From a virus, in IMG/VR virus record IMGVR_UViG_3300032308_002155, positions 1 through 22,794 of that record: 22,794 nt of DNA. One strand, 5' to 3'. Below the pieces are notes generated by a model. It worked only from the letters and a program-made list of their open reading frames with translations. It searched no databases and had not been told where the DNA came from. Positions 8,178-22,794 of the stretch are shown here, one piece after another. Every line of letters starts with the position of its first letter. Position 1 is the stretch's first letter. The position numbers and the translations under genes are program-made.

Positions 8178-9698
8178 TTATTGTAATTTTTTAACGTATA
8201 AAGTTGTTGGGGTACTATTCGCGTCTGATGGGTACGCACTATTCGCACTTACATTCAGAAGTATGATAAAATATTCTGGTTGTGTTACATTTGAAATTAT
8301 CGATTGTCCAAGTATTAGTTGATCAGAAGTCAATGTAGCAGCTTTAAAATCAGATAATAATCTACTAATCGTAAATGGTCCATTAACAGCTGTTGATCTA
8401 GCTAATTTTACTAAAACATCAACGTTCCCGTACATATCAAAAAGGTGGACATGTGTTATAAATTCATATACTCCAGGTTCTTTAATATATATTCTGGTAG
8501 TATTAGTATTTCCAGGACCAACCAATTCAAATACATTGGTATTCGTATTAAAAAATGTTGTTCCCCATGGGATATTAACATCTGTATTGTTTGTAATATT
8601 AAAATACCCATTAAGCCAACCAACGCCGAAAGATGGTAATGTAACGATACCCGTTGCTCCAGTTGCACCATTTATTCCAATTGGGCCAGTTGCTCCAGTT
8701 GACCCTGTTTGCCCAATACCAGTTGCGCCGCTTGTTCCAGCTGGTCCCGTTGAACCAGTAGCCCCATTATTTCCAACAGGCCCCGTTGAACCTGTCGCAC
8801 CTGTCGCCCCTGTCGCCCCACCTGGACTTCCTTGTGGCCCTGTCGCGCCAGTTGCGCCGTTTGCACCATTTGTTCCAGCTGGTCCCGTTGAACCCGTAGC
8901 CCCATTATTTCCAACAGGTCCTGTTGAACCTGTCGCGCCACCTGGACTTCCTTGTGGTCCTGTCGCGCCAGTTGCGCCGTTTGCACCATTTGTTCCGGTT
9001 GGTCCCGTTGAACCCGTAGCCCCATTATTTCCGGTTGCTCCAGTTGGTCCGTTACTTGGGCCAGTAGCTCCAATTGGTCCCGTCGCGCCGGTGGCTCCAT
9101 TTGGACCTTGTGGCCCGATAGTTGAAGACATTTGAATAGGTGCTACTGAAGCATATTGTGGTATTAATTGCCATCCACGATCAGGACCAGTAAAAACTAA
9201 ATTAAAAGCAGATCCTTTTACATCGCATGTTAAATCGAAATTAAAACCTTCTATTTTATAATTGTTTCTCAATATTGATAAATTTTTTTCATCAAAAGTT
9301 TCCGAGAAATCAAATATTTCGATATTATCACCAATCGATGGGTCCGAAGGTAATGTAACAAAAAAACTACCAGTAATAGTATTAATAGCATATTTATTAC
9401 CAGCCGATAATAAAGTAGGTGTTTCTATTAACGTATATGCATTTACTAAATTTTCACCCTTTAAAAAAACACCAGAACCATTTACTGTCGGTCTAATTAT
9501 AAAATCTTTACCCCCATCTATTGTTTGGTTACCAGTTGTTTTTACAACAGTTGTTCTTAATTCTGATTCTATATTATTAACACGACCAGATAAAGCAACT
9601 GTCTGACCAATCTGTGTGAAATAATTCGCACCGTAACCAGATACTAAATCTTCAATATCGGGGTGTAACTGATATTTTCTGATTAAACTCTTAGCCAT
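8178..9698 (-). CDS. Collagen-like fibre with C1q-like C-terminal tip
   Basis: The domain order is clear. A short N-terminus ([19 protein letters not shown]) precedes one [12 protein letters not shown]...[14 protein letters not shown] repeat (54-82). A beta module follows (88-180) with [11 protein letters not shown] and a [10 protein letters not shown] end. Residues ~195-350 are Gly-X-Y collagen repeats rich in GAT/GPT/GST triplets, with a few interruptions. The last ~150 residues form a C1q/TNF-like beta domain ([20 protein letters not shown] ... [16 protein letters not shown]). Collagen followed by a C1q-like head is a classic trimeric adhesin layout. It sits one base downstream of the portal stop. 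The tip is closely related to that of the protein at 20007..21575, about 11 kb away. Host attachment is inferred. Confidence 0.88.
8821..9032 (-). repeat. 120-bp tandem repeat in the collagen-like region
   Basis: Bases 8821-8912 recur at 8941-9032 with only about three differences, a period of 120 bases (40 residues, [20 protein letters not shown] and following). A degenerate partial copy precedes it near 8728-8796. The period is a multiple of three, so copy-number changes preserve the Gly-X-Y frame. Confidence 0.8.
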
Positions 9699-9699
9699 A

Positions 9700-11607
9700 T
9701 TATTCTAATTTACTATGATATAACAAAATTGCAGTTTTATAATCAAGGCCATATTCTTCTGCAATTTTATTAATCTCATCCATATTCGCATTAACTTGAA
9801 CCGGTTTATTGATGTAATCTTCTATTTTATTTAACCACTCTTTAGGAGGTTCATTGGTTGCGATTGTTTCGGCTACGGTTTGTATAATTTCTTTTTGTTC
9901 TTTACTTAATCTCTTACGATTATACTTTTCTTTTAAAGACAATTCTATGCCATCAATAAGACCATCGAATCTAACCAAGTTTTTAGCCACAAGATCTGCA
10001 TTAATTTGCGCTTTCGGTTCGGAAGCTTTTACAGCTGGAGTCGTTCGTGGAGCTTTTGTTGTTTGCGGGGTACCAGTCCCAGATGGCCTACCAGTCATTT
10101 CCTGTTCTTTGCCTTTATTAAGTAATGGTTGATAAAGACCATCTTCTTGTAATTTTTTAAAATCTTTTTGAGATTCTATACTTTCTTCTGGAAGTGGTAA
10201 GCGTCCAGTATCAATAGCCGTAATCCCTTCTTCTGGAGTAAGAACCCCAAGCTCAATTAGTCTAGAATAAGTACGTGTTAAATTTGCATCACTTTTGAAA
10301 TCAGCGTCTTTAAATCTAGGGGTCGGTAAATTTTTAAAACCAAGACTTTTCCCAATTTTTTTAACTTCTGGCATTAAGAATTCGTTTATAAATGTTTCTC
10401 TTGCATGTTTTAAACGTGATAAAAATACTTCTATTTTTGTATTTGTATTGGCATATTTTTCTTCTCCAAATAAAACGTTATTAAGACCATAACGAATATC
10501 ACGGTCTACAACTTCATATTTTTTAGGATCTAAAATATTGCTAATTTCTGGAATTATAAATTTAATATTTGTTGTATAATCAGTAACTAAAATACGACCA
10601 ACACTTTCATTTTCAAAGATTTTTCTTAATGTTCCGATTTGTTCTTTGGTAGGCATGCCGACTTCATCATTTCCCATTGTAACCAATAAGACTGCTTGCT
10701 GTATAGTACGGCTGATTGCCATGTCCATATTTTTAAGTTCTTGCTTCCAGTTAATATCTTCGAGAACTGGGAAGCCCATTGGAACGCTAAATGGTTCATA
10801 ATCTTGTTTTTTATAAAATACTGAAATGATTTTATCCCCGTTTAACTCAAAAACCATTTGTTGGTTAGGAACGGTCATTGCTGATTTATTTTGAATATCT
10901 TTAATATTAACAATTCTTTTCGCAAGTTCTTTATCTTGATCTGTTTCTGGGTTTGTAAGAATCTGCATTTCAAAATCATTTAAAACTTTAATATATTTAG
11001 GAGTTAGAAAGGATGTTGACCCAACAGCTTGTATGTCAGCAGGATTTAAAATAATATACCTCACGGGAATTTCTGCCGAGCTATTTTCTGCGCCCATGAT
11101 TTCCGAAATTACCCTCATATCTTGTTTAGTAAATTCTGCATGTATTTTATATAAGAAAACATTTCCACTACGGAAAAATTCTCTAAAAAACATATCCTGT
11201 AATTTCCATAAATTTACCCTTTGAGCCCAAATCTCAAAAAATTTACGAGATTGGTCATTACCGCCAGAAAAATAAATAGGAGAACAACTGAATTCTGTCA
11301 TTAAATCAATTGTATTTCTAAAAATAGAAAAATTGTAATAAGCTTTTTGGCATAAAATAATAGTATCTCTAACGCTTATATTAGAACCATACTTACCTTT
11401 GCCGCCGCCATAAATAAAAGGAATAACCCCGCCCTCAATATTTGCATATTTATCAGTTCTCGAAATAGAGGCGGCCCTATTTCTTCTTACAGATGTATTC
11501 ATTTCGCCACGACTAGCTTTTACCTCTATAGTGTCTTTTGACTTAATAGATCCTTCAATTACCTGCGGCTCTGGGAATTTAATATTTTTATTATTATTAT
11601 GCGCCAT
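9700..11607 (-). CDS. Portal protein
   Basis: The portal forms the dodecameric ring through which DNA is pumped and to which the tail attaches. The 635-residue length is right for a portal. After a disordered N-terminus comes the portal-type segment [16 protein letters not shown] (~59-75), then [40 protein letters not shown] (~134-153) and a helical stem-like centre. The C-terminal part has a low-complexity Pro/Thr linker ([18 protein letters not shown]) and a charged helical tail. It directly follows the large terminase, the usual gene order. It has no Shine-Dalgarno site, but an extended -10-like element lies just upstream. Identification rests on pattern recognition plus context. Confidence 0.87.
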
Positions 11608-11621: not shown

Positions 11622-11649
11622 GTCTATTACACTAAAATCTGATATTTTA

Positions 11650-13554
11650 TTAGATTAATTCTGCAACAAACTCCGTATTCTTTTTTGCAAAATTTTCTGG
11701 AGCCATTATATCAAAATAAGCTTTAACGCCCCAGTTTCCAAGCATAAGAGTTGTATAATTATCTTTTCTAGCCCTGTTTATACTTGTAGATTTTCTTAAA
11801 TGCGACGGTAAATCAAAACTCTGGGTACCCCTAGATGTTGTGGTTACTTCAACATTGGCGCACTGATCTTTTGTATCTTGAACAATGAAATCTTGCTGCT
11901 CTATAAATTCTCTCACAGTTAATTTTTTAGTCTCAAATTCATTATCAGCTTTATCTCCAATACCTCTTGGGTAAATATATTCCATAGGAAGATTCATTGT
12001 AAAAATATTTTCTAAGATATCGGGGTGGTTGCTCGCGCGCGAGGCAAACCATATTTTTTTATGATCAATACAGGTTTGTAAATAAGAGTTTGCGCGGCCC
12101 AAGAAAAAACTAGTAAAATATTGTTTAATACATATATTACCAAAATCTTTATTATATTGGCGAGCGCAATCTTTCAACATCTTTGTGTAATCCTCATTTT
12201 CTTTATCAGAATCAAAATCTACAAACCCAATTTTACGATTCATGTCTTTAAAAAATTGAGAGTTATTAACCGCATCTATAAATGTGTCAGCACCAGCATG
12301 GTCGATTACAATCAGGGCGATATTAAAGTTTTTATATAAATAATAGAAATATTTTATATGATCTTGTAAAGATGATCCAGCTGCTTGGTAACCATGAACT
12401 AAAACGCCCTGCTTCTTTTCTTCATCAATCTCAATAACACTCATAGCAAAATAGTCAGCCCCTTTCGAAGAAGAAAAATTTGGGTCAATAGATATAATAT
12501 ATTTTTTATCACTATCTCCAATTACTTTAGTGGTTGGGTATTCACCATCTGGGATAGTACAGTCATGCATTTTTTTAGGTGAGAAATAACTATCTCCGCC
12601 ATCAATAAAACGGGCGCAATATTCACGAAGAAACGAATGATGTGAACTTCCACCACTTTTAGCAACTTGAATCGCACCTTGATCTACCATGTGTTGAGGC
12701 AGGGCTTCATAACTTAATTGAGAAATAAAATATGTCCCAGGTAATTCCCCCTCTTTAGACTCTTGTTCTTCTGGGTGCTCTACTAAGTGTGACCATTGTT
12801 GATACACACGGAATAGATGTTCGAAAGTATAACTTGCCGAACTTAAACATAACATTTGTGATGTGTTTTCAAATATATGCCTATTATCTGGATGCAATAA
12901 CCCCTTTTTTATTAGTTCTTCTTCTAATTTTCTAATACGAATACGTTCACCCACATCTCTTGGTGAACTCAAGAATGGAATAAGAACATTATCAATAATA
13001 TCTGGAGGTAAAAGTAAAAACTCGTCCAAGATAAGTACGTTAGCACGGATACCACGAATTTTTTCTCCAGTTAATGGGATAGCCGTAATACTACCGCCAT
13101 TAATTTGCCATTCATATTGGTCATTTCGCTTGCTTTTTAAACCGAAACATTGCCGCGCTAAAGCTGCGCCTGGAGACATTAAAAATTTTTCAATTTCATT
13201 AAAAACACGACGACTAGTACGAAAGTTAATAGACGCAATAAGTATTTTAGTTCCAGGCTCTAACATGCATTTAAGAATGCAATAGATTGCAGCGCAAAAG
13301 CTTTTCGCGCCGCCACGCCCCCAAACTAACATGCAGTAATTTCTATTAAAAAAAGAATTAAGTGTTAATTCTTGATAAGCTTCTAATGTTAAGCCCATTG
13401 ATAATTCCGTAGTAAAACCAAGATTATATCTTAGAAATTTAGCAAGGCTAACCCTTGCTTCTACGTCGGTTAAATCGCCCTTTAAATCAAGCAATTCTTT
13501 ATTAACGTTAGCTAATGGTTTAGATTTTTTTTGATTTCCAACTATAAGTGCCAT
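11650..13554 (-). CDS. Terminase large subunit (ATPase and nuclease)
   Basis: This is the DNA packaging motor, which powers translocation into the prohead and cuts the concatemer. All expected elements are visible in 634 residues. Walker A-like WGRGGAKS is at 78-85, Walker B VLILDE at 173-178, and a coupling motif LCLSSAS at ~235-241. The RNase H-fold nuclease shows acidic residues in YIISIDPN (D357), ALIVIDHAGAD (D418) and a late Asp near D598 (RKDNYTTLMLGNWG). The start overlaps the upstream ERCC4 nuclease gene by 13 bases, and the portal gene follows after 42 bases. The protein appears intact, with no inteins or frameshifts. Confidence 0.93.
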   Translation of the reverse strand: MALIVGNQKKSKPLANVNKELLDLKGDLTDVEARVSLAKFLRYNLGFTTELSMGLTLEAYQELTLNSFFNRNYCMLVWGRGGAKSFCAAIYCILKCMLEPGTKILIASINFRTSRRVFNEIEKFLMSPGAALARQCFGLKSKRNDQYEWQINGGSITAIPLTGEKIRGIRANVLILDEFLLLPPDIIDNVLIPFLSSPRDVGERIRIRKLEEELIKKGLLHPDNRHIFENTSQMLCLSSASYTFEHLFRVYQQWSHLVEHPEEQESKEGELPGTYFISQLSYEALPQHMVDQGAIQVAKSGGSSHHSFLREYCARFIDGGDSYFSPKKMHDCTIPDGEYPTTKVIGDSDKKYIISIDPNFSSSKGADYFAMSVIEIDEEKKQGVLVHGYQAAGSSLQDHIKYFYYLYKNFNIALIVIDHAGADTFIDAVNNSQFFKDMNRKIGFVDFDSDKENEDYTKMLKDCARQYNKDFGNICIKQYFTSFFLGRANSYLQTCIDHKKIWFASRASNHPDILENIFTMNLPMEYIYPRGIGDKADNEFETKKLTVREFIEQQDFIVQDTKDQCANVEVTTTSRGTQSFDLPSHLRKSTSINRARKDNYTTLMLGNWGVKAYFDIMAPENFAKKNTEFVAELI

Positions 13555-14474
13555 ATCGTATCAAAATAATATTGCAAATCAAATTTACAAGCTTCTTCAT
13601 TCATTGCTAAAAGATGTAGAGTTTTAATTTTAGCATCTTCACGATCATCACAAAAAACAAATTGTAAATTATCATATTGACGTAATAATTTTCTCATATT
13701 ATGAGCAATAAATTCACCAGAAGCTTTACCGAATTTTTGTTTTTGATACATCATGTTATTAAGTGTTGACTCGACAACAACGACAATGTATCCTTCTAAT
13801 TTTTTAGCTTTTTGAATTTCACGCTCAAATCTTTCACGCCCACCACTTAATGTTCCATATAAATCACTTAAACTTTTACGCTCAACTGCTAATTTATTAT
13901 TAGGATGTAGCGAATAATCTCCATACTCTAATTTAGATTCTATTAAAGTATGACCCTCGAAATGAAATGGCTTTTGTTCCCGACTATCTACAATAATTTG
14001 TGGAATGGGCGTAAATGAGATCTCTTCTGGAATTTGATAATTAAACCTGGAACGCAATCCATGTTTTTGATACAAATTCTTGTAACCCATTCCAGAAAAA
14101 GCTTCCATAGTACTAACGGGTAATAAACAATTAATACTCTGGCACTCAACTTGACCTGGGGCTACATCAATACTTTTTAAGTCACAATATTGCCCTAATT
14201 TACTTTTAAAATAATCGGCGCATTCTTCTTGAGAAAGAGTCTTTAACCAGTTTTTATAGTTTTTCTTATCTACAAAATCACAGGTAATATATTGATCAAA
14301 TGATTTATACTCTAATTTTGTACCATTAAAACGGTCAATACGCTTCCAATAAGTTTCAAAATAAGTCTTACAGGAAAGCTTGTGGTAATATCTTAAATGT
14401 TTTTGAAGTTCAGCAAAATAATTAAATTCTTCGCCACAAACTTTACATTTTAAATATATTTTGTTCTTATTCAT
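13542..14474 (-). CDS. ERCC4/XPF-type nuclease with N-terminal C2H2 zinc finger
   Basis: Residues 10-31 form a zinc finger, C10-x2-C13-x12-H26-x4-H31. A middle section of unknown fold follows (35-155). Residues ~158-275 carry an XPF/Mus81-type nuclease core: VDSREQKPF (D163, R165, E166), YGDYSL (184-189) and the signature ERKSLSD (198-204, ERKxxxD), then GRERFEREIQKAKKL and the buried strand YIVVVVES. All catalytic positions are present, so it should cut branched or flapped DNA. It lies between a candidate small terminase and the large terminase, overlapping the latter by 13 bases. A role in clearing junctions before packaging, analogous to T4 endonuclease VII, is an inference; recombination or host DNA attack are alternatives. 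Confidence 0.87.
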   Translation of the reverse strand: MNKNKIYLKCKVCGEEFNYFAELQKHLRYYHKLSCKTYFETYWKRIDRFNGTKLEYKSFDQYITCDFVDKKNYKNWLKTLSQEECADYFKSKLGQYCDLKSIDVAPGQVECQSINCLLPVSTMEAFSGMGYKNLYQKHGLRSRFNYQIPEEISFTPIPQIIVDSREQKPFHFEGHTLIESKLEYGDYSLHPNNKLAVERKSLSDLYGTLSGGRERFEREIQKAKKLEGYIVVVVESTLNNMMYQKQKFGKASGEFIAHNMRKLLRQYDNLQFVFCDDREDAKIKTLHLLAMNEEACKFDLQYYFDTIWHL

Positions 14475-14485
14475 AATATATTATA

Positions 14486-15598
14486 TTAACTATGAACCAT
14501 TTCATCTATATCAATTCCACGAATTACCGCTTTTAACTCGTCCATTGATGATAAGCGTTTAGCTTCTTCTTGCAGGTTTTGTTTTTGAGCTTCTGCGAGG
14601 TGAATAATACTTTTACGACGTTCTTCGTCTTTCCACGCTTGTACTAAATTAAGAATGCTAGCGTTCTCTTCTTTACGCTCCTGTATTTTTTTAGATCGAT
14701 CATCTACAAGTGATTTATATAATTTATTTTGTCTATTACGGCATTGGTTGTATTCGGTTTGTAAGCTACTAATTGCCTCATTAAGACTCATTTTAATATT
14801 GCGACCATCGTCTTCTTCCGATGCCTGTCTCAATAATTGACGCAAGTCTTCAACCTGTTGTAAAATACTTGAAGCCGTAACTGTCTCAGTGCATAGGGTT
14901 ATAAATTGATCTAACTCTTCTTGTGTTAAGTCTTCCTTGTCATATGTATAACGAATAAAAGCATCCTCAAATAATTTTCTATCGTCTTCACGACGATAGG
15001 TATTAATTTGATAACAGAAACTAAAAGTATTCAAATATCTTTGCAGCATTTCAACCTGTTTAGTCTGAACGGCTTTTAATTTCTTATCCTCCCACCCCAA
15101 GTTAAGATATTTATTAACTCGGTATAATGTTTGGTCCATACGGCGCGGCGGAAAGTATTCACCCAGAGAGGTTGGGGTCGTGACTTCGGATTCTTTGGGA
15201 ACATAAGTCGTCATGTCCAAAAAAGTAGGGTCTGCCTTTTGCAGTTTGTTAACGTATTTGTTAATTTCGCGCGATTCGAGACTCAGATGGGTTAAAGTAT
15301 TATTTTTAAATAAAATTTTTGCCATATCTAAGTAGTGTTGATTTTTATAATTATTTTTTATAAATTCTTCTTGATCTTTTGTTAATGAAACGCGATCCCT
15401 TTGAAAAACTGAACGATTTTTATATTCAATATTATTATCTAATAAATATTGTTTTAAAATCCGCCCCTCTTTACTACGACTATCAATATTTTCATTATTA
15501 TAAGTGCAAGCAGTAATCTCAGTGAGGGTAGCTTCAGGATTTTTTTGCAAAAATTCTTTTAATCTATTTTGCTGTTCTAATGTAAGAATATCTTCCAC
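14486..15598 (-). CDS. Helical DNA-binding-like protein, candidate small terminase (unproven)
   Basis: I do not recognise a family with confidence. The 370 residues are almost wholly helical and charged. The N-terminal ~130 residues show two helix-turn-helix-like stretches (LTLEQQNRLKEFLQKNPEA; LTKDQEEFIKNNY followed by a MAKILF helix), and a long coiled-coil-prone region lies at ~235-350. Translation starts at GTG, fixed by a perfect AAGGAGGT six bases upstream and by the TAGTG overlap with the sigma-like gene. Its position, one nuclease gene ahead of the large terminase, makes a small terminase (DNA recognition) role plausible. At 370 residues it is longer than most small terminases, so a scaffold-like or transcription-related function remains possible. 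Confidence 0.7.
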   Translation of the reverse strand: MEDILTLEQQNRLKEFLQKNPEATLTEITACTYNNENIDSRSKEGRILKQYLLDNNIEYKNRSVFQRDRVSLTKDQEEFIKNNYKNQHYLDMAKILFKNNTLTHLSLESREINKYVNKLQKADPTFLDMTTYVPKESEVTTPTSLGEYFPPRRMDQTLYRVNKYLNLGWEDKKLKAVQTKQVEMLQRYLNTFSFCYQINTYRREDDRKLFEDAFIRYTYDKEDLTQEELDQFITLCTETVTASSILQQVEDLRQLLRQASEEDDGRNIKMSLNEAISSLQTEYNQCRNRQNKLYKSLVDDRSKKIQERKEENASILNLVQAWKDEERRKSIIHLAEAQKQNLQEEAKRLSSMDELKAVIRGIDIDEMVHS

Positions 15599-16302
15599 TA
15601 TACAACCTCCTTAACTACTTCGCGTGCTTTTTGTAAAATTTTAGATTTAATTTTTCCAATTTGTCTATAGGCCGGACGACCTTCTTTCAAACTAAGTTTA
15701 TAACCCATTTTTTTTGCGACATCGGCTTCATCTAAATGTTGTAAAAACATCAAATCATAAACCTTCCATTCAATATTTGTTAAATATTTTTTCATAATTT
15801 CATGAAATAAAGGCATTATATTTTGTATATCAATAGCATTTTCTGTATCGTGTAAAACATTCTCCAAAGTCGTTTCTGGGTTATCATGATTTGGACTATG
15901 GATACTTAAAGGAAATTTAACATCATACGCAGATTTCTTACTTTTTTCCCACTTCTTATAATCTTTACAAGAATTATTTTGCGAGCCATATACTGAACAA
16001 CCATAATCCCCAGTATTAAATGGACATTTTAAACAAGGTCTTGAAAAATTAGAATAATGATTTCTTAACATGTTAGTCATCTGATGATTAATGACTTGGT
16101 TTAACCAGGGGCGCATTGGGCGAGTTGGATCCCATTTTTCCCATTTTTTGTAAATATGTAGTCTCAGTCTTTGCGCTATATCTTCAAAATCCATCCATGC
16201 GATTGCGGTAAGATGCCAACGATGTTTACGTTTCTGGATTTCCGAATCAATAATTTCTATCGACTCTTCGAATGTCGGCCTAGCAATTTTTTTACGAGGC
16301 AT
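15598..16302 (-). CDS. Phage sigma-factor-like protein with four-cysteine insert
   Basis: Sigma factors direct RNA polymerase to promoters. Residues ~37-86 resemble sigma region 2: MDFEDIAQRLRLHIYKKW, then WDPTRPMRPWLNQVINHQ and MLRNHYSNF. A putative zinc site follows directly with C90-x2-C93-x8-C102-x9-C112. The C-terminal 65 residues look like region 4, with WKVYDLMFLQHLDEADVAKK as a helix-turn-helix core. The size (234 residues) is near that of short phage sigma factors such as T4 gp55 (185). It lies three bases after a zinc-ribbon gene and overlaps the next gene as TAGTG, at the head of the packaging/structural cluster. A late-gene sigma is the best guess; the partner polymerase would be the host's. 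Sigma assignment is fairly sure, the late role is inferred. Confidence 0.8.
   Translation of the reverse strand: MPRKKIARPTFEESIEIIDSEIQKRKHRWHLTAIAWMDFEDIAQRLRLHIYKKWEKWDPTRPMRPWLNQVINHQMTNMLRNHYSNFSRPCLKCPFNTGDYGCSVYGSQNNSCKDYKKWEKSKKSAYDVKFPLSIHSPNHDNPETTLENVLHDTENAIDIQNIMPLFHEIMKKYLTNIEWKVYDLMFLQHLDEADVAKKMGYKLSLKEGRPAYRQIGKIKSKILQKAREVVKEVV
15605..15612 (-). promoter_or_regulatory. Strong Shine-Dalgarno AAGGAGGT
   Basis: The minus strand reads AAGGAGGT, then TGTATA, then GTG at 15598. It settles the non-ATG start of the 370-residue gene and lies inside the 3' end of the sigma-like gene. It is the best ribosome-binding site in the window. Confidence 0.8.
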
Positions 16303-16305
16303 GGT

Positions 16306-16707
16306 TTATTTGGATCTTAAAGAGCCAGCTTCGGACTGGAATTCTTGTAAAATTTCTTGTGTTGATTTCGAAGTATTTGATTTTTCAATAGAGGGCTCAA
16401 TTAATTCTTGTGGATTATCTATTAGGTCGCCAAATGATTCACCTTTATTTTTATAAATATTTAACTTATATTTTGCTTTAACTTGCTTAAAATTAATATG
16501 CTCTTCTTGAACGTTTTCGACCTCTTCTTCTCTAACCGAGTTTATATTTCTTTTTAATTTTAATTCATTTAAAAATTTATTTCCTTGTTCTACGGCTTGC
16601 GGGGAAGCTAATTTGTTTGCGAACGATTGTCCACAAAAAGCACAAAAGCTTGGTATTTCAAAAGTATACTGTGTGGTTTTACCACATTTTGAGCAAAAAT
16701 ATTTCAT
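16306..16707 (-). CDS. Zinc-ribbon protein
   Basis: The N-terminus holds a compact zinc ribbon, C5-x2-C8-x13-C22-x2-C25 (FCSKCGKTT ... FCAFCGQSF). The remaining ~105 residues are polar, acidic and probably largely disordered or helical. The family is not otherwise recognised. It is the first gene of the long minus-strand cluster and ends three bases before the sigma-like gene. Co-transcription with a sigma factor that also has a four-Cys insert suggests an accessory transcription role, but a generic nucleic-acid-binding function is equally possible. There is no Shine-Dalgarno site. A GTGTAAACG sequence, related to the GTGTAAATA box, lies 16 bases upstream of the ATG. Confidence 0.72.
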   Translation of the reverse strand: MKYFCSKCGKTTQYTFEIPSFCAFCGQSFANKLASPQAVEQGNKFLNELKLKRNINSVREEEVENVQEEHINFKQVKAKYKLNIYKNKGESFGDLIDNPQELIEPSIEKSNTSKSTQEILQEFQSEAGSLRSK

Positions 16708-16793
16708 ACACTAGTATCTTATACGTTTACACAAAAAAATTCTAAAATCTCTTCTATTAACTTTTTATAAAATATATGTGTAAATAACCATTG
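16708..16793. promoter_or_regulatory. Divergent promoter region with GTGTAAATA-type boxes
   Basis: This 86-base AT-rich region separates the zinc-ribbon gene (minus) from the HEYCH peptidase gene (plus). On the plus strand GTGTAAATA is at 16778-16786, seven bases before ATG 16794. On the minus strand the related GTGTAAACG is at 16724-16732, 16 bases before ATG 16707. The region must drive both directions; a TATAAAATA sequence also occurs at 16766-16774 (plus). No terminator hairpin is apparent. Confidence 0.45.
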
Positions 16794-17381
16794 ATGTCGT
16801 CTTTAATCAATTCCAAGGTCTTCGGTATCATTAAAGAAGATATCGAATCTCTTGATGGTCGAGTTATATTATTAAAAGGGAACTACTGCGGTGGTAAGAG
16901 CAAATGCTCTGGACTTTTTTATATGAGTTCAAATGACAATCCAATTATTAAGGTTGCGAAAGGTAATTTAGCAGAAGATGAATGGTTTGGAGTATTAGTT
17001 CATGAGTATTGCCATTTTATACAATGGAGAGATGATACTCGAATATGGAACCGTTTTTGCGATTATGATGTTACGTATTCTGAAATTATATTAAAACCTG
17101 AAAAATATAAAAAAGAACTTGCCGTTTTAATGGAATTAGAAATTGATTGTGAAAAATGTGCCACGAGTATTATAAAAAATAATAAGCTATTCGATTATAA
17201 AAATTATGTCCAAACCGCAAATGCAATTCTATATAAATATGCAATGTTATATAATTATGGAAAATGGCCCAACGACAATCGAAAATATCAAAAAGTCCAA
17301 GAGTTTTGTCCAAAAAGAATTCTAAAATCTTATAAAGAATATTTAAATATTCCCGAACAGGTTTATAATTATTATAAATAA
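16794..17381 (+). CDS. Putative zinc metallopeptidase (HEYCH motif)
   Basis: The protein carries VLVHEYCHFIQW, a canonical HExxH zinc-peptidase helix (H71, E72 and H75, counted from the TTG at 16791; subtract one when counting from ATG 16794). A second helix, MELEIDCEKCATSII, contains acidic residues (E115, E117, E121) that could supply the third ligand. This layout resembles ImmA/IrrE-like and other small gluzincin-type peptidases. There is no signal peptide, so it is probably cytoplasmic. ATG 16794 is preferred over the adjacent in-frame TTG 16791. No Shine-Dalgarno site is visible, but a GTGTAAATA box ends seven bases upstream. It is one of only two plus-strand genes here and meets PhoH tail to tail with no spacer. 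Substrate unknown; host-regulator cleavage or virion maturation are guesses. Confidence 0.75.
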   Translation: MSSLINSKVFGIIKEDIESLDGRVILLKGNYCGGKSKCSGLFYMSSNDNPIIKVAKGNLAEDEWFGVLVHEYCHFIQWRDDTRIWNRFCDYDVTYSEIILKPEKYKKELAVLMELEIDCEKCATSIIKNNKLFDYKNYVQTANAILYKYAMLYNYGKWPNDNRKYQKVQEFCPKRILKSYKEYLNIPEQVYNYYK

Positions 17382-18120: not shown

Positions 18121-18129
18121 TATTTACAC
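18121..18129 (-). promoter_or_regulatory. GTGTAAATA box upstream of phoH
   Basis: The minus strand reads GTGTAAATA followed by 13 bases and then the phoH ATG. The same nonamer is found before the HEYCH peptidase and the 522-residue collagen fibre. The wider 104-base divergent region (18108-18211) must also promote hsp20. On its plus strand I see TTGAAC at 18174-18179 and TAATAT at 18200-18205, but their 20-base spacing is poor for a sigma-70 promoter. Confidence 0.4.
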
Positions 18130-18628: not shown

Positions 18629-18631
18629 TTA
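18626..18631. other. Second back-to-back stop junction (TAATTA)
   Basis: The hsp20 TAA and the glycosyltransferase TAA directly abut, forming TAATTA, as in the peptidase/PhoH junction 1.2 kb away. No hairpin terminator is visible. Confidence 0.8.
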
Positions 18632-19744
18632 GCTTATATAATTTTTATATAAAGCGTCTAAATTAGAACCATCTTTTGGCGTATACCAACCTTTTCCGGT
18701 ATATACCTCAAGAACATCTTGAAAATATTTTTCATACATTAGAGCAACACGTTCGAGTGAAAAGTTTTCGCCCCATTTGCGACAATCAATTGATTTAATT
18801 TTATCTATATTCTTGATCGCTTGTACGAAATCGCCCATCGTTCTACAACGATAGCCCGTGATTCCATGTAGATTATTTTCTGCAAAACTACCCCAATCGG
18901 TGGTAATAGTCGGCGTACCAGAAAGTAAATTTTCAATTTGTACTCCACCAAATGGTTCTACGTACATGCTAGCAAGGAAACTTGCCTTTGCTTTTTTCAT
19001 TAAACGTTTTCTAGTTTCTACATCAGCATATCCAATATATTCGACATGATCTGGTAATACATAACCTTCTTCTTTTTGTCCAGCTATAACTAGTTTGACA
19101 CCAGCAATTTTTGTAGCCTCAATTGCGATGTTAACACCTTTTCCATTATACACCCTGCCTAAATAAAGAAAATAATCTTCTTTCTCGTCGCAGTAATCGA
19201 AATCTTCTAAATCAAAATAATTGGGAATAACAACTTCATACCAGTCCTGATTACATTGTCCAACATTTTTTAATCCACAATAGGCATGATAAATTGCATA
19301 GGATTCAAAGATTTTCCAACGCGCCCAGTGCCCACCAGCATATCCGATTCCAGGTTCTACAGTGATTAAATCAGGATGCGCGTCACAAATTGGGCGAACC
19401 CCTGACCCCCAGAAAGGAAGAATAAAATCATGTTTTTGTTTTCTCTTGCCTACTTCTATAATCGCATTACGGAAAAAAGTTTGGTAGGCATGATCATTAG
19501 TGTCAAATTTAAAAAAATTATTTTTCCAATCATGGGACCCGTAACTAATCTCAAAATCACGGTTCGTTAATACTGTAACGTGCTCATCGCAAATAACATC
19601 CGAATCTTCGTGGCCATAATGAATGATCGTGTGCCCACGAGCCTTCATCATTTTGCAAAATTTAACTACTTTCTGAGTATAGGCACAAGCATTAAATTCT
19701 TTACTAGTAACTGTATGTGGAAGTCCTAATACATGAAATCTCAT
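18629..19744 (-). CDS. GT4-type (GT-B fold) glycosyltransferase
   Basis: The protein probably transfers a sugar from a nucleotide-sugar donor with retention of configuration. The C-terminal half has the family marks: YLGRVYNGKGVNIAIEA (194-210), the strand KLVIAGQKEEGY and the EX7E motif EPFGGVQIE (263-271), followed by SGTPTITTDWG. The N-terminal half is a plausible acceptor domain starting with MRFHVLGLPH. The 371-residue length is normal. It is 36 bases downstream of a 73-residue unknown and follows two collagen-like fibre genes, so Thr-rich Gly-X-Y repeats are attractive acceptors, as in BclA-type collagens. Host surface glycans, other virion proteins or modified DNA bases are alternatives. 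Family assignment is firm; acceptor unknown. Confidence 0.88.
   Translation of the reverse strand: MRFHVLGLPHTVTSKEFNACAYTQKVVKFCKMMKARGHTIIHYGHEDSDVICDEHVTVLTNRDFEISYGSHDWKNNFFKFDTNDHAYQTFFRNAIIEVGKRKQKHDFILPFWGSGVRPICDAHPDLITVEPGIGYAGGHWARWKIFESYAIYHAYCGLKNVGQCNQDWYEVVIPNYFDLEDFDYCDEKEDYFLYLGRVYNGKGVNIAIEATKIAGVKLVIAGQKEEGYVLPDHVEYIGYADVETRKRLMKKAKASFLASMYVEPFGGVQIENLLSGTPTITTDWGSFAENNLHGITGYRCRTMGDFVQAIKNIDKIKSIDCRKWGENFSLERVALMYEKYFQDVLEVYTGKGWYTPKDGSNLDALYKNYIS

Positions 19745-20006: not shown

Positions 20007-22794
<2,788 letters not shown>

Follow-up and report, generated by a model that had tools for sequence, protein, structure and literature searches.

Which transcription factor directs the expression of the structural genes in the uncultured virus represented by IMG/VR record IMGVR_UViG_3300032308_002155? 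The window, meaning here the whole analysed stretch of 22,794 nucleotides, contains two small adjacent genes at the head of its packaging and structural genes. A first-pass annotation, made from the sequence letters, had read them as a zinc-ribbon protein (ZnR) and a sigma-like factor with a four-cysteine cluster (Zn-sigma), and had suggested that they may form a late transcription module, with gp55 and gp33 of T4 as the known example. The features of the locus are compiled in Table 1.

Table 1. Genes, protein domains and predicted promoter elements of the window
Feature	Position	Strand	Basis or remark
Portal protein	9700..11607	-	PHROG (weak) and position
Late promoter element GTGTAAT before portal gene	11626..11632	-	kept at its place across clades
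Terminase large subunit (TerL)	11650..13554	-	PHROG
ERCC4-type nuclease, N-terminal C2H2 finger	13542..14474	-	Pfam/PHROG
orf370, probable small terminase	14486..15598	-	deduced from position and HTH-like N-terminus; relatives have it between the sigma and TerL genes
Zinc-cluster sigma factor, 234 aa	15598..16302	-	Pfam Sigma70_r2, PHROG sigma family, fold matches, synteny
Sigma region 4-like domain, residues 158-234	15601..15831	-	fold match to sigma-H, SigE, SigW and others
Four-cysteine (putative zinc) module C90-x2-C93-x8-C102-x9-C112, region 2/4 linker	15967..16035	-	cysteine conservation
Sigma region 2, residues 36-86	16045..16197	-	Pfam match 36-82; model helices 39-56 and 63-86
Region 2.3/2.4 helix, residues 63-86 of sigma region 2	within 16045..16197	-	
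Zinc-ribbon protein ZnR, 133 aa	16306..16707	-	alignment, model, upstream of sigma in relatives
Zinc ribbon C5-C8-C22-C25	16633..16695	-	invariant in 24/24
Late promoter -10-like element GTGTAAA, ZnR-sigma operon	16726..16732	-	19 nt before ZnR start
Divergent late promoter element GTGTAAA	16778..16784	+	10 nt before ATG (16794) of orfP196
Divergent gene orfP196, HEYCH (HExxH) motif	16791..17381	+	196 aa from TTG; likely ATG start 16794; synteny kept by almost every relative
Late promoter element GTGTAAA before phoH	18123..18129	-	
Late promoter element GTGTAAA before collagen-repeat virion-type gene	21583..21589	-	

The sigma factor with a putative zinc cluster and its gene neighbourhood

There is little doubt that the 234-residue protein belongs to the sigma-70 family, because two independent domains are present in the right order and a Pfam match supports the assignment. 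Residues 36-82 match Sigma70_r2 (PF04542) with 29.2 bits against a cut-off of 24, and the search against sigma-family profiles recommended by the first-pass annotation recovered this family in 35/35 aligned relatives and PHROG 1740 (RNA polymerase sigma factor) in 30 of the 35. Within region 2, the residues P65, W66, I71, Q74, N77, R80, N81 and Y83 are invariant among 137 distinct sequences. The structural model built from 35 sequences (mean pLDDT 72) contains confident helices at positions 39-56 and 63-86 of region 2 and at 159-173, 176-187, 192-198 and 211-233 of the C-terminal domain, and its fold matches among PDB entries and viral models are almost all sigma factors. Upon re-alignment, region 4 is matched apart from region 2, the deviations from known region 4 structures being 1.7-2.5 Å over 64-68 residues. 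The best match is sigma-H (1.7 Å over 68 residues) with a Z value of up to 9.9, values of 8-10 being middling for helical domains, and region 4 of E. coli SigE superimposes with 2.5 Å over 68 residues. No sequence profile matched region 4 of Zn-sigma, PF08281 being absent at the gene in the eight contigs searched, and a sequence search of solved structures with the sigma protein yielded sub-threshold matches only, region 2 of CnrH being the best among the sigma factors. Judged from the model, the protein is a two-domain (ECF-like) phage sigma factor whose region 4 is recognised by fold only. The sigma-like ends described by the first-pass annotation are thus recovered, region 2 by Pfam and both ends by fold, and the structure comparison on which it had staked its reading in advance returned matches to regions 2 and 4.

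The linker between the two domains contains the four cysteines, which are found exactly at the annotated positions 90, 93, 102 and 112 and are the only cysteines of the protein. They are invariant in 43/43 close and middle relatives and in 137/137 distinct sequences from 189 freshwater and marine loci, with identities down to 39%. Scans of viral contigs, in which the sigma protein and ZnR served as queries, supplied these relatives; most of the search patterns contained no cysteines and some contained them. The loop lengths between the cysteines vary among the relatives, as exemplified by C-x2-C-x10-C in the deepest outlier L199, and the model confidence is low in this part of the protein (pLDDT 44-58). 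Four invariant cysteines connected by variable loops look like a metal site, presumably for zinc, and we refer to them as a putative zinc module. The linker of two-domain sigma-70 factors is usually short and devoid of a metal site, although this property is not strictly defining. The initial impression that a four-cysteine insert after region 2 is unusual for a sigma-70 factor agrees with the position of the invariant module in the region 2/4 linker.

The family has so far been found only in uncultured freshwater and marine phages, these habitat labels being deduced from the grouping and the composition of the contigs. Neither tblastn, run with three divergent queries against 50,697 named phage records, nor one scan of GTDB genomes revealed a relative of the sigma protein, and a terminase search gave partial identities of ~23-35% at best. 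A description of a zinc-ribbon/sigma phage factor of this kind was not found in the full-text literature, in which subscription papers are incompletely covered.

The ZnR gene is separated from the sigma gene by 3 nt on the same strand. Its ribbon cysteines C5, C8, C22 and C25 were correctly placed by the first-pass annotation and are invariant in 24/24 aligned sequences, and in each of the 122 loci that could be judged the gene immediately preceding that of the sigma factor encodes a C-x2-C...C-x2-C zinc-ribbon protein. Except for the ribbon and a conserved C-terminal helix, the ZnR model is mostly of low confidence or disordered. ZnR is the constant partner of the sigma factor and probably a co-factor, this role being a guess derived from the gene pairing.

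Downstream of the ZnR-sigma operon, the minus strand encodes orf370, the ERCC4 nuclease, TerL, the portal protein and tail-type proteins with collagen repeats. The gene order PhoH - orfP196 - ZnR - sigma - orf370 - ERCC4 - TerL - portal is nearly unchanged among relatives ranging from >90% to ~40% protein identity. G003, with 178 kb the largest relative, has a block of ~48 kb that extends from the ZnR-sigma operon in one direction and includes the tape measure gene; the cluster size of ~16 kb originally proposed therefore corresponds to the part visible in the cut-off window. For orf370 neither Pfam nor PHROG provided a family match. The ERCC4 nuclease gene is placed between the probable small and the large terminase genes in all relatives. 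Long collagen-like G-A-T-G repeats characterise the virion-type genes at 8178-9698, 20007-21575 and 21595-22782, all on the minus strand. The divergent orfP196, which has its intergenic region in common with ZnR, might encode a zinc metalloprotease on the basis of its HEYCH motif and is devoid of a family match. A glycosyltransferase encoded at 18629-19744 (minus strand) is 70-75% identical to those of the cyanophages S-CAM7 and ACG-2014f, the rest of the phage being unrelated, which suggests gene exchange and gives a hint of related hosts or a related habitat.

GTGTAA as a probable promoter word of the late genes

Over-represented words were sought upstream of genes in two large relatives without assuming any particular word. 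In both of them GTGTAAT ranked first and was strand-specific. Among all hexamers located within 46 nt of gene starts in four contigs, GTGTAA is the most enriched (97 seen versus 6.2 expected), and TTGACA is also enriched in the same count. The intergenic GTGTAA sites in five contigs amount to 30, 33, 27, 23 and 19, compared to 5.2, 6.9, 5.0, 5.7 and 2.2 expected, and are mostly oriented into the next gene. In the window, the word occurs 11 times versus 9.0 expected, such that there is no overall excess and only its placement is non-random: each of the 5/5 intergenic copies is followed, after 8-19 nt, by a gene of the same orientation, i.e. those of the portal protein, ZnR, orfP196, PhoH and a collagen-type protein. 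The freshwater clades and every marine locus printed carry the word upstream of the portal gene, in the marine loci amid largely unrelated sequence. A middle clade has CGTGTAGAAT in place of GTGTAAT, one pair of middle-clade loci (L066/L067) shows no word in the stretch printed, and the outlier L199 contains GGTGTACT. As controls, T4 and S-CAM7 were subjected to the same script, which recovered their known late word TATAAATA and detected no GTGTAA near gene starts. The T4-type word TATAAATA was also considered for the contigs studied here and is not clearly enriched upstream of their genes. GTGTAA was not found described as a phage promoter in the full-text literature, again with incomplete coverage of subscription papers.

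In nine contigs including the window, the distance between GTGTAA and the start codon has a sharp maximum at 8-10 nt and is most commonly 8 nt. This spacing resembles that of a Shine-Dalgarno sequence and would be expected if GTGTAA were a translation signal; like an activator site, such a signal would be unrelated to the sigma factor. We consider this reading very unlikely, since at 110/122 GTGTAA sites the gene that follows lies at least 12 nt away from the previous one, compared to ~55% of all genes, and since the word is concentrated in the late block. Moreover, the distances extend up to ~35 nt, and a Shine-Dalgarno-like word is found between GTGTAA and the start in 2/97 cases at distances of at most 12 nt and in 27/49 cases at distances of at least 20 nt; in genes without GTGTAA, it is present in 116/1171 of such 12-nt windows. 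The bias towards operon heads and the dependence of the Shine-Dalgarno pattern on distance are the reasons for reading GTGTAA as a promoter and not as a ribosome-binding site.

The assignment to late genes is based on a structural block taken here as the 54 kb surrounding the sigma gene on its own strand. GTGTAA is found at 42/84 operon heads inside this block versus 66/475 outside (pooled p = 2e-12), TTGAC-type host promoters at 2/84 inside versus 87/475 outside (pooled p = 4e-5), whereby the pooled tests count orthologous genes of related phages more than once; for GTGTAA the enrichment in the block gives p < 0.05 in each of six contigs. Some genes outside the structural block are also preceded by GTGTAA, and the list of GTGTAA-led genes in G003 does not include those for DNA polymerase, ribonucleotide reductase and replicative helicase. 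By their existence and placement, the sites mark GTGTAA(W) as the probable promoter word of the late/structural genes. The word itself is strong and -10-like, and a weak GG.C signal is detectable 16-19 nt upstream of it, at the distance of a -35 element. If GTGTAA is placed like the -10 element of sigma-70 promoters, the spacing of 8 nt would position the transcript start at the ATG and many late mRNAs would consequently be leaderless.

Probable assignment of the word to a sigma factor

The large freshwater contigs encode a second phage sigma factor of ~200 residues without a cysteine cluster, found in G003 (C1:96294-96923, corresponding to L165:1295-1924) with equivalents in G001, G002 and G004-G008; in G005 and G006 the profile match spans one TGA. 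In place of the freshwater type, the marine relative G009 contains an RpoD-like sigma factor with a frame of 301 residues (C1:4915-5817). A second sigma factor was not detected in the shorter, fragmentary contigs of the other clades. The freshwater protein shows a region 2 match and a weak region 4 match, and its gene has its own host-like promoter TTGAC-N17-TATAGT. Because a profile-profile comparison between Zn-sigma and the second sigma factor gave no significant match, their relationship is based on Pfam and fold only.

The second sigma factor might itself read GTGTAA and switch on the ZnR/Zn-sigma operon, while Zn-sigma acts at other, unrecognised promoters. Such a cascade is compatible with the GTGTAA promoter in front of the ZnR-sigma operon, with the two domain matches of the second factor in the large freshwater contigs and with its host-like promoter, which implies early expression. 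We nevertheless regard it as unlikely, as the marine clade retains GTGTAA although the ~200-residue sigma factor was not found in most of its contigs (these being fragments) and only a distant RpoD-like protein was found in G009, and as the only other promoter word to stand out was TTGACA, which is host-like. GTGTAA and Zn-sigma are kept together across clades at ~45% identity, whereas the second sigma factor differs between them. On account of this co-conservation, Zn-sigma rather than the second sigma factor is quite probably the reader of the word.

A further scenario assumes that the 234-residue protein has lost promoter recognition and serves as an anti-host factor or as a packaging/structural accessory, retaining the sigma fold and binding polymerase or DNA via the zinc module. 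The vicinity of its gene to the terminase genes and a cysteine module unlike anything in standard sigma factors would fit. It is, however, highly improbable in view of the invariant region 2.3/2.4 positions and of the dedicated late promoter word that co-occurs with the sigma factor.

Relation to known systems and proposed mechanism

Zn-sigma resembles the ECF (group 4) sigma factors such as SigL/SigH of M. tuberculosis and sigma-E of E. coli in its two-domain build, in the folds of regions 2 and 4 and in the helix pattern of region 2.3/2.4. It differs from them by the linker of ~70 residues with the invariant four-cysteine module, by the very weak -35 element of the GTGTAA promoters and by the lack of a recognised anti-sigma gene nearby. 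Linker cysteines are shared with the metal-dependent ECF sigma factors CorE and CorE2 of Myxococcus; CorE senses metals and has a CXC motif in the region 2/4 linker and a C-terminal cysteine-rich domain, and its linker cysteines are needed for activity (PMC8999054). Zn-sigma contains CX2C-x8-C-x9-C at this position and no C-terminal cysteines; lacking the linker CXC and the C-terminal cysteine-rich domain, it does not belong to the CorE-type class.

In T4, genes 33 and 55 lie apart. The late module of this phage consists of gp55, which has a region 2-type domain only, and of gp33, which is bound to the beta flap and replaces region 4, and it is activated by the gp45 clamp (PMC7892883, PMC2988020). 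The locus analysed here is similar in that a phage sigma-like factor, probably serving virion genes, is accompanied by a small partner protein and in that the predicted late promoters have almost no -35 element. When the -10-type 8-base words GTGTAATA and T4 TATAAATA are compared, the last two bases are the same and the AA before them is of a shifted class. In contrast to gp55/gp33, the region 4 fold resides in the same protein, a cysteine cluster is present and the gene of the zinc-ribbon partner is located directly upstream; a comparable cluster is missing from the gp55-like sigma factor of the cyanophage S-CAM7. Homology to gp55/gp33/gp45 was rejected due to the presence of region 4, the different word and the absence of a gp45-type clamp over the cut-off. 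For the latter, PF02916 gave one weak match and none over the cut-off in eight large contigs, and the bacterial-type clamp PF00712 was not matched in nine contigs, with the reservation that the contigs may be incomplete. The multi-subunit phage RNA polymerase profile PF00562 had no match in eight contigs. Thus, the idea of a late transcription module stands with respect to the sigma factor and to its location at the head of a structural block with its own promoter class, but not with respect to T4 gp55/gp33 homology.

In archaea and eukaryotes, zinc-ribbon proteins fill the role of the sigma linker in the active cleft (PMC6372665), which would make a TFB/TFIIB-like role of the zinc module an attractive possibility. 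By analogy, the module could correspond in position to the sigma linker or B-reader, although Zn-sigma has no cyclin repeats and is a sigma factor.

Altogether we consider it likely that an ECF-like late sigma factor with a zinc module in its linker directs RNA polymerase to GTGTAA(T/A), involving positive feedback and ZnR as partner, and we propose the following scenario. The early genes, including that of the second sigma factor, would be transcribed from host-like TTGACA/TATAAT promoters. Subsequently, Zn-sigma might replace the host sigma factor on the host core RNA polymerase by means of regions 2 and 4 and open the late promoters at the -10-like GTGTAA(T/A), assisted by a weak -35 element at most. 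The resulting late mRNAs would begin near the start codon and might often lack a leader. The GTGTAA promoter before ZnR presumably enhances the synthesis of Zn-sigma, and this feedback would turn on the ~50-kb structural block after the early phase. ZnR is expected to act together with Zn-sigma, probably as a co-factor, and the zinc module would sit where the linker of other sigma factors enters the active cleft. We speculate, with considerable doubt, that the module replaces sigma region 3/linker as part of promoter reading and opening and, together with the zinc-ribbon partner, reads the GTG half of GTGTAAT and loads the template strand, thereby converging on the zinc ribbon and B-reader of TFB/TFIIB, with late mRNAs being mostly leaderless.

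The proposed system would represent a family of sigma factors in which a conserved cysteine module of the metal type takes the place of the flexible linker of ordinary sigma factors, and a late-gene switch that works like that of T4 but is differently built. The predicted target word makes the sigma claim directly testable in vitro, and GTGTAA may serve as a marker word from which late promoters can be predicted in a phage group that is widespread in freshwater and marine habitats. Moreover, the family raises the question why zinc modules are found repeatedly next to the active cleft of RNA polymerase, in TFIIB, in TFB and perhaps in a sigma factor.
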